Source: Gammaproteobacteria bacterium
GTDB taxonomy: Bacteria; Pseudomonadota; Gammaproteobacteria; Pseudomonadales; Azotimanducaceae
Direction of reading: 5' to 3'
Length of the DNA: 64,000 bases
Assembly: GCA_005799745.1 (NCBI GenBank)
Contig: SYFY01000198.1
Location: 1-64,000, forward strand
The notes below the pieces were generated by a model. It searched no databases. It was not told the DNA's origin and worked only from the letters and a program-made list of their open reading frames with translations. How positions within the stretch are numbered: position 1 is the first letter of the stretch; the number at the start of each line of letters is the position of its first letter. Below, in pieces: positions 31,217 to 62,671 of the stretch. Both the position numbers and the translations under genes were made by a program.

Positions 31217-32770
31217 GTGGATCAACCCGACGCACCCGATTTGCGCCCCAACATTCTCTGGATCGTGGCTGATCAGCTGCGGGCCGATCATGTGGGTTTT
31301 GGCGGCAACAAGATCGTCCGCACTCCCAATCTCGACGCACTCGCAGATCGAGCAACGGTGTTTGATCGCGCCTATGTCGTCAATCCCATTTGTATGCCGA
31401 ACCGGTGTTCGATGATCACCGGGCGCATGCCGTCGTCACACGGTGTCGTGTTTAACGACCGGTCCCTTGCATGGAACTCAAACACTTGTGTGCGTCAGCT
31501 TGTTGAAAGTGGTTACGACACGGCGCTGATTGGCAAGTCGCACCTCCAACATGGGCTCAGCCGCAATGTGAGTCGAGCCGGACGTCACGCACCTACAGCG
31601 CAGTCCGTTTTTCCGGCCGGTTAGGATACTTTGGAAGATACAGAGCGCTACCTCAATGAGGCGCCTGACATCACCGACTTTTATGGGTTTCGGCATGTGG
31701 AGTTCGCAATTGGCCATGGCGATGCGGTCACCGGACATCCCTATCGCTGGGCATTGGAGCGTGGTGCCAAACCCGCTGACCTGAATGTTGCCTGGGAAAA
31801 CCCTGGACCCGCGATTGAGCGTTACCCTGACTGGTGGCAGATCTTTCAGCCAACGCTGCCCGAAGAGCTGCACTCCACGACCTTTGTCACCGAGCGCTCT
31901 ATCTCCGCGCTTGAGCGTATGGCTGCTGGGGATAGACCGTTTTTCCTGCAGTGCTCCTACCCAGATCCCCATCATCCGTTTTCGCCACCCGGCAAGTGGT
32001 GGCAGGCCTATGACCCCAACGACATGCCTGAGCCCGCGACGATCGACGACGACCTCTCCGGTGCCGCGAAGCACCTGAGCCTCATCCGTTCGTGGAAACC
32101 GTCAAAGAACATCGTGCAGATGTTTGGTGCCAACCGTGAGCTCGTGCGCCACGCCATGGCGGCCTAATTCGGCATGATCGAGATGATGGATCAAGGCATC
32201 GGTGAAGTGTTGCGAGCGTTGGATCGACTGGGGCTCGCAAAGAACACCGTGGTGATTTTTACGAGTGACCACGGTGACATGTTTGGTGATCACGGCCTCA
32301 TGCTGAAAGCGACGATGCACTATCAAGGCTGTTTGCGCTTGCCTTTGCTGATTGCAAGACCTGGAGAAGCCGGCCTGCGCACACAGTCGCTGGCCAGCTC
32401 CATGGACCTTGCACAGACGTTCCTGCATCTCGCCGGAGCAAAACCATTTGTGTATATGCAGGGTAAGAGTCTGGTGCCGGTGCTCAATGATCCGCATCGT
32501 TCGGTGCGTGATCATTGTCTCGTGGAAGAGGAGTTTCCGCTCGCGCTCATCGGCAGTCCGCTGCCACTGCATACACGAACGATTTACACCGACCGATATC
32601 GGTATTCGCAGTATTCGAGTGGTGATGTGGAGCTCTACGATCTGGTGAATGACCCGGACGAGGGTAGAAATCTTGCAATCGAATCTGATTATCGAAATCA
32701 GCGACTGGAAGTGTCAGAACGCCTCAGCGCGGCGATGATGTCGACCGCGCAAATGGGTGTATCAGCCTAG
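31217..32770 (+). pseudogene. sulfatase, interrupted by two in-frame stops
   Basis: One frame from GTG 31217 (AAGGA 6 bases upstream) to TAG 32770 reads as a 517-residue type I sulfatase. TAG at 31622-31624 (codon 136) and TAA at 32165-32167 (codon 317) break it. RPNILWIVADQLRADHVG and the formylglycine site CMPNR with Cys59 lie before the first stop; the metal-binding DHGDMFGDHG lies after the second. Similarity continues without a frame shift across both stops. The contexts suggest a lost Trp or Gln (FPAG*DTLED) and a lost Tyr (MAA*FGMIEMMD). The 1.5-kb frame is otherwise undamaged, so decay is recent or the stops are sequence errors. Confidence 0.8.
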
Positions 32771-37988: not shown

Positions 37989-39077
37989 ATGCAAAAGAAT
38001 CTCGCCAACGCCGCTCTGGTGGCGGCGAGTACCCTGATTACTCTGCTGTGCATCGAAGGGGGCCTGCGCCTAGCAGGCTATGAACCCCTCAAGGCCATGG
38101 CAGCAGGTAAAGACCTGGTGCTCCGTCGTTCCGAAGATCCCGACATTGGTTACGAACTGATCCCCGGTTCAAAAGGGCGAGCGTTCAAAACCGAACTGGC
38201 CGTGAATTCCGTCGGCTTCCGAAGTCCGGAGCCGAGCACGGATGACGAGGTACGTCGTGTGGTTTTTCTTGGGGATTCGATCACCTTCGGCAGCGAGCTG
38301 CCGGTGGGCACCACCTACCCCGATCTGCTCAGAGATCGCCTCAAGGCGCGTGATCCACGTTTTGATGTACAGAATCTTTCTTTGAGTGGTTATGACACGC
38401 GTCAGGAAATCGCGGTGCTGGAGCGACACGGACTGCCACTTCAACCGCGAATCGTGGTGGTCGGGTTCTGTCTCAATGATGCAGGTGTCGTCTCTGCCAA
38501 CCTCGAATACCTCGAACGTCTCAACGTTTATGCGCGCAATCCCTGGTTGTTGCAGAGCCGGCTCGGGCAGTTGTTGCTAACCAGCGTCGATCGGCTTCAG
38601 GGGCGGTGATACGAAGAAGTGGCGAATGATCCCGAAGTATTCAGGACGCGCTTCTAGGATCGCATCACGCCGATCGCAGCAGATGAAACCCGGTTGTTGT
38701 CGCTCATGCGGGAAGCGCCGGAAGTACTGCCATCGGGCTGGTATCGGGATGAAACCCGTGTCGGCCGTCTGCGTTTTGCGTTTGAACGCTTGTCAGCATT
38801 ACGTGATCAGCACGGTTTCCGATTGTTGTTGGTGGTCTTTCCCTTTCACGAAACGGATGCAGAAGGGGTTTACACGCACCGGGTTGCGCACGCCATCGTC
38901 GGTTTAGAGGCCGAACGCACACGGCTGCCGGTACTGGACCTTTCTGGCCCGTTTCAAAGGCGAGGGCTCGTGGCCTTGCGTAATCATCCGGATGATCCGG
39001 TGCACCCGTCACCCGAAGGTCACCAGATGGCTGCTGACGTAATCTGGGACTGGTGGATGTCCAACCACGTCCTCTGA
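37989..39077 (+). pseudogene. SGNH/GDSL hydrolase, interrupted by two in-frame stops
   Basis: One frame of 363 codons with TGA at 38607-38609 (codon 207) and TAG at 38655-38657 (codon 223). The first part has an N-terminal membrane anchor (LVAASTLITLLCIEGGLRLAG), block I VVFLGDSITFGSELP and FDVQNLSLSGYDTRQEI. The part after the stops has the catalytic D-P-V-H (HPDDPVHPSPEGHQMAADVIWDW). No frame shift is needed. A product ending at the first stop would lack the catalytic His, so the gene is inactive unless both stops are read through. Confidence 0.8.
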
Positions 39078-53865: not shown

Positions 53866-55152
53866 TCAGCGTCGCATGACAGGCACGGTGCCATAGGTGA
53901 GTGCTCGCCATAGCCACTCGAGCAGACCCAAGGTATAGGACTTGAGCCACCATTGACTGAAAGCGATCTGGGCAATCCAGATCACGATGACGACGGGATA
54001 GAGTTGCGCCCGGGAGAGTTCACCCACTAACGACAGACCCAGCCCTGAGAAAATCAACGCGCTGAGCAGCGACTGTGTGAGGTAGTTTGTTAGCGCCATG
54101 CGGCCACAACTCGCCAGGCGTTCCGTGATCCAGGTGAATCTGCCGTTCTTGACGATTAGAACCATCAGGCCAACGTAACCCAAAGCCATGCCAAGACGCC
54201 CCAGGTGGTAGGTGGGTTGTGCCTGGGCGAAGATCGCGAGAATCTCGAAATCCGCTGCAACTGCGCGATGGATCTCGTATCCGTTGGTGATCAGGCCGAC
54301 GGTGAATCCGATAACGGTCAGGCCGACATAGAAGCCGCTGCTGCGTGTGCTGTGCAGCACCCCGTTTTTGAAGAGTGCCATGCCGAGCATCATCATCACG
54401 AGGGCATCCCACAACAGAAATACCGGCACAACCAATGTGATCATCTCAGCGCTCTCGTGTCGGTTCCACTCGAAGGCGCTTTGGTAGCTCTCGCGTTGCT
54501 GCTTCAGTTCATCGCTAGTCGCTTCCTCTGAAGGCTGATAGCCTTCAACGAAAGTGGTCCATTCCGCAGCCAACTCCCGAGTCTCTTCTGATATCGAATC
54601 GGGCGTTTCTGCGGCGGTCACTTCATCGTGAGCCGAACGCAAGAGTTGTATGCCAAATCCGACCGCACCCTGAAAGAGCGACAGGAGAAGAAAGAGCACC
54701 GCGGTGAGCGCGAGTAACTTGCCGGCGGACAGGTTCCTGAGAAAGTAGAGAAGTGCACCCGCGAGGGCATAGGTGACCAGAATGTCACCGCTCTACAGCA
54801 GCACAAATGCGTTCACTAAACCAAAAACCAGCAACCAGAACGTGCGTTTGTAATGAATCCAGCCCGACTTGGCATTGGCGCCGGTGGTGAACAACACCAC
54901 CCCGGCTCCAAACAACAACGAAAACAGACCACGCATGGCACCTTCTGCGAACAGTTCAATCGTGGCCCAGGTATAGAAATTGGCATTGGCGCCAGCGGAA
55001 ACATCGAAACTCGGATTGGAATAGGCCGGTGATGGAAGGCCAAAGCCGATGATGTTCAAAAGCAGGATGCCGAGAACCGCGAAACCCCTGACCACATCCA
55101 GCGAGGTGATGCGGTTGGATTCATCTGTAGGAGTGATTGAGGGGTAAGCCAA
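53866..55152 (-). pseudogene. DUF418 membrane protein, interrupted by in-frame TAG
   Basis: A single frame of 429 codons from ATG 55152. TAG at 54795-54793 is codon 120. Before it: SLDVVRGFAVLGILLLNIIGFG and MRGLFSLLFGAGVVLFT, the DUF418 N-terminus. After it: SGDILVTYALAGALLYFLRN and the C-terminal GRMALTNYLTQSLL and PLEWLWR-like LGLLEWLWRALTYG. In DUF418 proteins the position before GDI is commonly Trp, so TGG to TAG is the likely change. About ten membrane helices; function in transport of an unknown solute. Confidence 0.82.
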
Positions 55153-55223
55153 TTTCTGGTCCTGGCAGGTACAGGCCGAATGCGCGGATGTGCGAAAGTG
55201 AGAGGTAAACCTCAGGAGAACCT

Positions 55224-61943: not shown

Positions 61944-62492
61944 TCAGTACTTGTTGCCCGGATCCGATACGTGCATCCGCATGTCTTCCGGCACGTCAGG
62001 CGGGTTGACCTGAAATGTCCCTTCCTCAACCGGAGGATGCACGTCGAAGACGTTGTTGAACTTGTGCACGGAATCCCAGATGCCTATCGCGATCGTCAGC
62101 TCAACGATTTGTGCCTCGCTGAAGTGTTGTTTGAGACGATCCATAAACGCATCGTTCACAGATCGCGCGTGATTGAGGATGAAGTCCTCAGCCAGATCGA
62201 GCGCTACCTTAGTGCGTTCGTCGAGATCCGAGTTCCGGTGATCGAGCATCGTCACGATCATTTCTTCCGTCATGCCATTCTGCTGCGCCGCAGCAGATCG
62301 TGCTGGAATTCAGTAACGGCAACCGTTGAGGTTGGATGACTTCAGCCGGATCAGATCTTTGAGCACCGGATCGAGCTTGCTGTGCGACCACAGCACGCCG
62401 TATCGAAACATGAAGCCTTTGAAGAGATCCGGGCAGTGCATGTAAACACCACCGAAGCCCGTCAGGCCTGCAACTTCAGAAACCCTTGGCAT
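61944..62492 (-). CDS. carboxymuconolactone decarboxylase/AhpD-like protein, candidate CxxU selenoprotein
   Basis: One frame of 183 codons from ATG 62492 (GGAG upstream). TGA at 62312-62310 is codon 61. It reads SSNLNGCRY(TGA)IPARSAAAQQNGMTEEM: the UGA sits where the second Cys of the CxxC redox pair is expected, after Cys58. The frame then continues normally to AIGIWDSVHKFNNVFDV and the end. A hairpin starts 12 bases after the UGA. If read as selenocysteine this is a 182-residue CxxU protein; if not, the gene is another nonsense-broken one, with a 60-residue fragment and possible reinitiation at 62273. Confidence 0.7.
62279..62297 (-). promoter_or_regulatory. SECIS-like hairpin downstream of in-frame UGA
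   Basis: On the coding (minus) strand, 12 bases after the UGA, TCTGCTGC and GCAGCAGA form a perfect 8-bp stem with loop GGC. UGA-to-loop distance is 20 bases and the first loop base is G, within the published limits for bacterial SECIS elements (loop 16-37 bases after UGA, G near the loop start). The loop is short. The stem also encodes Ser-Ala-Ala-Ala-Gln-Gln, so it could arise by chance from GC-rich codons. Confidence 0.4.
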
Positions 62493-62671
62493 CTTTCGCT
62501 CCGAAAGTGGATTGGCTTGGGTGGAGCATAACGCCATTGTGGAAGCTAAATCGATTGGCGATACGCCACCCGAGTGATGCAACGCTGAGTGGCCTGGATT
62601 CGATCATCCCAATGGATCGCGCCTTGCGCCGGTGTAAGATCTCAGCAAGTCAGAAAGAGAGGAGGCGCGCT

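Follow-up and report, generated by a model that had tools for sequence, protein, structure and literature searches.

A conserved in-frame UGA and a covarying hairpin support selenocysteine decoding in a CMD/AhpD-like gene of a gammaproteobacterium

Does the single in-frame stop of an otherwise open CMD/AhpD-family gene end translation, or is it read as selenocysteine (Sec)? The gene lies on the minus strand of the 64,000-nucleotide stretch of gammaproteobacterial DNA analysed here (the window), where positions 62492-61944 encode 182 residue positions interrupted only by a TGA at 62312-62310, codon 61, in the context NGCRY-UGA-IPARS. An initial annotation of the locus had reported this frame with its lone UGA, which was confirmed and assigned to the minus strand, and had suggested a selenoprotein. 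Based on sequence comparison, we infer that codon 61 is decoded as Sec, with a probability of roughly 96%, chiefly because the UGA and the hairpin that follows it have been kept in relatives from two distant bacterial groups. The features used in the argument are as follows (all on the minus strand).

61944..62492, CMD/AhpD-like gene, probable selenoprotein of 182 residues with Sec61 (translation, Pfam CMD, orthologues with the same lone UGA)
62310..62312, UGA codon 61, probably read as Sec, second position of CxxU (UGA in every orthologue locus reaching the codon and in L020)
62319..62321, Cys58, the Cys member of the CxxU pair (unchanged across all 19 aligned rows)
62279..62297, putative bacterial SECIS hairpin within the coding sequence, 8-bp stem (both-side changes at three of eight pairs; codons 66-73 most conserved)
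62499..62502, GGAG located 6 nt 5' of the ATG, a likely ribosome-binding site (function predicted from sequence)
61944..61946, TGA as ordinary terminator of the gene (some orthologues end in TAG or TAA)

The gene, codon 61 and its orthologues

The translated frame matched the Pfam CMD family (PF02627) over residues 27-102 with 46.9 bits (cut-off 23) and the AhpD core domain TIGR00778 of NCBIfam with 30.7 bits (cut-off 27.8). Codon 61 occupies the second position of the CxxC motif and aligns with the second Cys of that motif in CMD homologues. At this locus the standard gene call lists only a 109-residue piece 3' of the UGA; standard gene prediction would probably truncate such a gene at the UGA or label it a pseudogene. 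Codon-usage scans of the window for further UGA-joined genes returned none, but they missed the known CMD gene too, so this negative result carries little weight. The source genome is a draft (85.94% completeness, 4.93% contamination).

Scanning contigs with peptide patterns that avoid codon 61 recovered 29 related loci, two of which (L073 and L074) begin 3' of that codon. In all of the remaining 27, codon 61 is UGA and the matched stretch is otherwise free of stops, which answers the homologue check proposed with the initial annotation. The hosts are Gammaproteobacteria (including Halieaceae and 'Candidatus Litorirhabdus singularis' IMCC14734, the host of locus L060) and Chloroflexota (Dehalococcoidia, Tepidiformaceae), and one Tepidiformaceae copy, L062, sits on a 2.4 Mb chromosome record. 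Eighteen orthologues aligned to the window protein were 70-92% identical to it. Among the genomes of 58 relatives (own genome included), five hold an orthologue (E 1e-91 or better, one TGA each), and the next best matches reach at most 40% identity; one of these copies, L020 (genome G015), was absent from the contig scan, while the other three relatives' copies correspond to L046, L049 and L052. No Cys-containing form was present among the orthologues found. Searches at class and order level (E<=1e-35) returned only the window's own orthologue (1/369 and 1/390) and therefore add nothing on Sec versus Cys.

The Chloroflexota orthologues (L062, L064 and L066-L072) resemble the window protein as closely as many of those from Gammaproteobacteria do, with 74-80% identity for the five that were aligned. 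This closeness suggests that a gene probably dependent on Sec machinery was transferred between the phyla. We saw no conserved operon around the orthologues at the 28 loci examined. Flanking genes named by eye from sequence included a short-chain dehydrogenase at 9 of the 28 loci, with examples from each of the two phyla, as well as a Rieske-type dioxygenase at 8 of them; neither group of flanks clusters with the window's own.

A hairpin downstream of the UGA

Starting 12 nt after the UGA, eight perfect Watson-Crick pairs (62297-62290 with 62286-62279) enclose a GGC loop at 62289-62287 (minus strand), whose G lies 20 nt after the UGA; the stem, its distance and its loop are as first annotated. 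Bacterial SECIS elements have their loop 16-37 nt after the UGA. A small apical loop with a guanosine is given as a common feature of these elements in PMC1088965. We assessed chance occurrence using a hand-written criterion (an 8-bp Watson-Crick stem and a loop of 3-8 bases beginning 16-37 nt on, with G within its first two places), and found that 4 of the 2441 TGA triplets that the window has on its two strands, codon 61 included, are followed by such a structure, rising to 86 with G-U pairs allowed. The folding energy of the single sequence was unremarkable (z -1.10, with 30 of 200 shuffles doing as well) and was dropped as evidence because it is not significant. The weight of the hairpin thus rests on comparison.

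For this comparison we aligned 28 sequences, 23 of them distinct, with stem columns 16-23 facing columns 27-34. Across the 184 cells (23 distinct rows by eight pairs), 96.7% were paired, all six unpaired cells falling at the outermost pair, and 14 cells had both sides changed relative to a shuffle mean of 5.5; the covariation score was 0.226 versus 0.098. None of 500 shuffles, which do not keep the relatedness of the rows, was as high on any of these three measures. Two weaker measures separated less well from the same kind of shuffle, namely the number of pairs with both-side change (three; 10/500 as high) and the number of further pair types (96/500 as high). Three of the eight pairs never vary and are hence uninformative. 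Sliding the partner strand by 1-3 columns left 24-71% of cells paired. With L020 added, 18 of the 24 distinct rows formed 8/8 pairs and six formed 7, compared to an average of 4.2 pairs under synonymous resampling, where no trial out of 1000 produced more than one perfect row.

Conservation at the codon level is also concentrated here: among the scored 8-codon stretches, the same-codon fraction peaks at codons 66-73 (0.86; gene mean 0.47). Several of the stem changes alter the protein. In the alignment, Ala67 occurs together with Gln71 (Arg71 in L060), and Ser67 together with Lys71 or Glu71. Where the stem has C-G in place of T-A, in L049, L052 and L020, Gln70 has become Arg; in L060, the replacement of C-G by A-T accompanies Ala68 to Glu. 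Because these compensatory changes cross codons and alter residues, conservation of the RNA explains the alignment better than conservation of the protein. The locus is a clear case of SECIS base pairs being kept alongside paired amino-acid changes (residues 67/71 and Gln70 to Arg).

Selenium machinery and competing readings of codon 61

The machinery for Sec insertion, which the initial annotation had proposed to look for, is present in the window's genome. We identified selA (518 bits) with selB (409 bits) adjoining it on contig C185, selD (261 bits), and two matches over the cut-off of the tRNA-Sec model, the better of which (contig C70, 70.6 bits) was called tRNA-Sec with anticodon UCA by ARAGORN and the other tRNA-Ser. 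The CMD gene, selAB, selD and tRNA-Sec lie on four different contigs of the draft. In 14 control genomes, matches over cut-off were found for selA in 1, selB in 2, selD in 2 and the tRNA-Sec model in 5. selA exceeded its cut-off in all 28 further genomes bearing the CMD gene (those of four relatives and of 24 loci, L073 and L074 being left out), as against 34 of the 58 relatives, a count that includes the four gene-bearing relatives and the own genome.

The selD gene makes up the C-terminal portion of a frame of 718 residues (L007:1405-3558, minus strand) whose N-terminal portion matches Pyr_redox_2. A SelD with an N-terminal pyridine nucleotide-disulfide oxidoreductase domain resembles the Ndh-SelD fusions mentioned in PMC2398784.

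Could the UGA instead be translated as Cys or another ordinary residue, by suppression or a code change and without selenium? Sequence alone cannot show the inserted residue, and other CMD relatives do have Cys at this position. However, UGA terminates 22 of the 40 stop-to-stop frames of at least 250 codons in the window and the CMD gene itself, tRNA-Sec (UCA), SelA and SelB are all present, and the conserved hairpin would be left unexplained, which makes this reading very improbable. The two UGA codons of the gene also differ in what follows them: the predicted fold after codon 61 has an energy of -17.1 kcal/mol, versus -7.6 kcal/mol over 48 nt for a bulged fold after the terminal UGA.

An ordinary nonsense mutation, leaving a pseudogene, or an error of the draft assembly is less credible still. 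The window does hold broken genes, and the initial annotation had cautioned that at least seven genes within 31 kb have ordinary-looking nonsense codons, a caveat borne out for three other genes (sulfatase, GDSL lipase-like and DUF418) but does not apply to the conserved UGA of codon 61. Unlike the stops of the sulfatase and GDSL lipase-like genes, that UGA is common to every orthologue locus reaching it, in two phyla, and codon choice varies least within the hairpin. Moreover, the sequence on both sides has evolved as coding sequence. Codon differences between L046 and the window gene number 21 synonymous and 4 non-synonymous on the 5' side of the UGA and 40 and 10 on its 3' side, where L066 has 36 synonymous versus 32 non-synonymous ones; in the four more distant of the five pairs tested, non-synonymous codons were more frequent but still the minority. 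Since differences are mostly synonymous on both sides, the stretch 3' of the UGA appears to be translated, and we rejected pseudogene or assembly error on the orthologue evidence. Absent machinery and further damage to the gene in close relatives, named beforehand as findings that would count against a selenoprotein, were both looked for and neither was seen.

The sulfatase gene (31313-32767, plus strand) contains an in-frame TAG at 31622 and a TAA at 32165, and the GDSL-lipase-like gene (38028-39074, plus strand) a TGA at 38607 and a TAG at 38655; both are open in L083, a same-genus sequence and the one relative compared, from which these stops are absent. The DUF418 gene (53869-55221, minus strand) has an in-frame TAG at 54795-54793 in its window copy. 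Beyond it, a short stretch at about 55357-55555 matches 13 contigs of genome G001 and is probably a dispersed repeat.

Finally, a mainly regulatory UGA, with conditional termination giving a 60-residue product and Sec insertion as one selenium-dependent outcome, would draw on the generally incomplete and selenium-dependent nature of UGA/SECIS decoding, but most of the CMD domain, matched at residues 27-102, would be missing from that product, and we regard this reading as highly implausible.

Under Sec decoding, a ribosome would meet the UGA at codon 61 while the downstream hairpin recruits SelB with Sec-tRNA(UCA), and the C-R-Y-U redox pair would receive Sec at its second position. The terminal UGA, with only a weak bulged fold after it, would still terminate translation, and Cys58 and Sec61 would cycle between selenol-thiol and selenenylsulfide states. 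Taken together, the conserved UGA, the covarying hairpin and the machinery genes support the selenoprotein suggested initially.

Family relationships, fold and comparison with known proteins

The window's genome contains eight CMD matches, two of them in one frame, and three of its CMD genes carry one in-frame TGA: the window gene, L081 and L082. The latter two (contig C13, motif TDCGYU; contig C87, motif NDCFTU) are further CMD genes with UGA in CxxU, indicating that selenium use in the family is broad in this lineage. The NDCFTU group (L021, L022, L025, L027 and L082) has a different stem sequence but the same hairpin plan as the window gene (12-nt distance, eight pairs, loop GGC), and some UGA-bearing CMD genes are without that plan. 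To place these sequences, we used a CMD tree of 40 rows, comprising the window gene, ten orthologues and 29 CMD rows from relatives and the own genome. Of these 29, 13 carry UGA, always as CxxU. Sec and Cys forms intermingle across the tree, which has several long branches and a midpoint root, with at least four label changes, three of them forced by well-supported branches.

AlphaFold2 modelling with 19 orthologues gave a mean pLDDT of 76.7 and a pTM of 0.73, with low pLDDT near the start and values below 50 over much the greater part of the final 25 residues. The best PDB matches were AhpD-like proteins (2gmy, 2o4d, 2ijc and 7xw1), followed by peroxidase-related proteins and the debrominase Bmp8. 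The classical AhpD active site, as in M. tuberculosis AhpD, comprises an acid, a CxxC pair and a His four residues after the second Cys. Asp/Glu46, Cys58 and Sec61 are present in the window protein and, from their spacing, presumably match the Glu, Cys and Cys of the M. tuberculosis enzyme. The protein departs from the classical site at position 65, where Arg, invariant in 19 rows, stands at the usual His place, so that the AhpD proton relay is incomplete here. Arg at this place also occurs in some Cys forms (NQCRSCMAIR) and is therefore not tied to Sec. We consider a role as a selenol-based AhpD-like peroxidase or thiol/disulfide oxidoreductase reasonably likely.

Atu0492 (2gmy), PA0269 and P. 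aeruginosa AhpD (2ijc, 2o4d, 7xw1) are the best matches by sequence and fold, and the alignments of Atu0492 and 2ijc place CxxC where the window protein has CxxU. They differ in having Cys rather than Sec and His rather than Arg65, at 21-28% identity in structural alignments. Bmp8 (6ohi, 6ohj) shares the fold family, with Foldseek E-values of 2.1e-04 to 4.2e-04, but is without Sec and only 21-22% identical. By analogy, reductive dehalogenation as in the Cys-based Bmp8 would be a guess based on fold similarity. It is a long shot that the gene represents a Sec-only, Arg-for-His CMD/AhpD subfamily that was passed, hairpin included, between Gammaproteobacteria and Chloroflexota and has a selenol whose chemistry extends beyond peroxide reduction, for example to dehalogenation.

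Among profile models, the best NCBIfam score came from NF053654, a YciW-related (seleno)protein model (62.6 bits over residues 16-151, cut-off 310). Although this is the highest-scoring model, its score is so far below the cut-off that the window protein is not a member. NF041047 and NF041537, likewise (seleno)protein models, also matched far below their cut-offs, and no NCBIfam selenoprotein model that was matched reached its cut-off for the window subfamily.

Titles and abstract openings of the literature on CMD selenoproteins yielded no description of the window subfamily, and PMC12013277 makes no mention of CMD, AhpD or the two host groups. As the initial annotation had stated, AhpD-like selenoproteins are known. 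PMC1088965 (Sargasso Sea) lists CMD domain-containing selenoproteins (Pfam02627, CxxU, 4 sequences), PMC2398784 (GOS) an AhpD-like 2 family (pfam02627, CxxU, 70 selenoproteins and 207 Cys homologues), and a table of PMC13188914 includes a CMD-like CxxU selenoprotein. These share with the window protein the Pfam family, the CxxU motif and an origin in bacterial environmental sequences. Set against them by description only, the window subfamily is distinguished by orthologues that, among those found, all have UGA at the Sec position and come from Gammaproteobacteria and Chloroflexota. The CMD-type CxxU selenoprotein is an already known kind, of which the window gene is a further branch.
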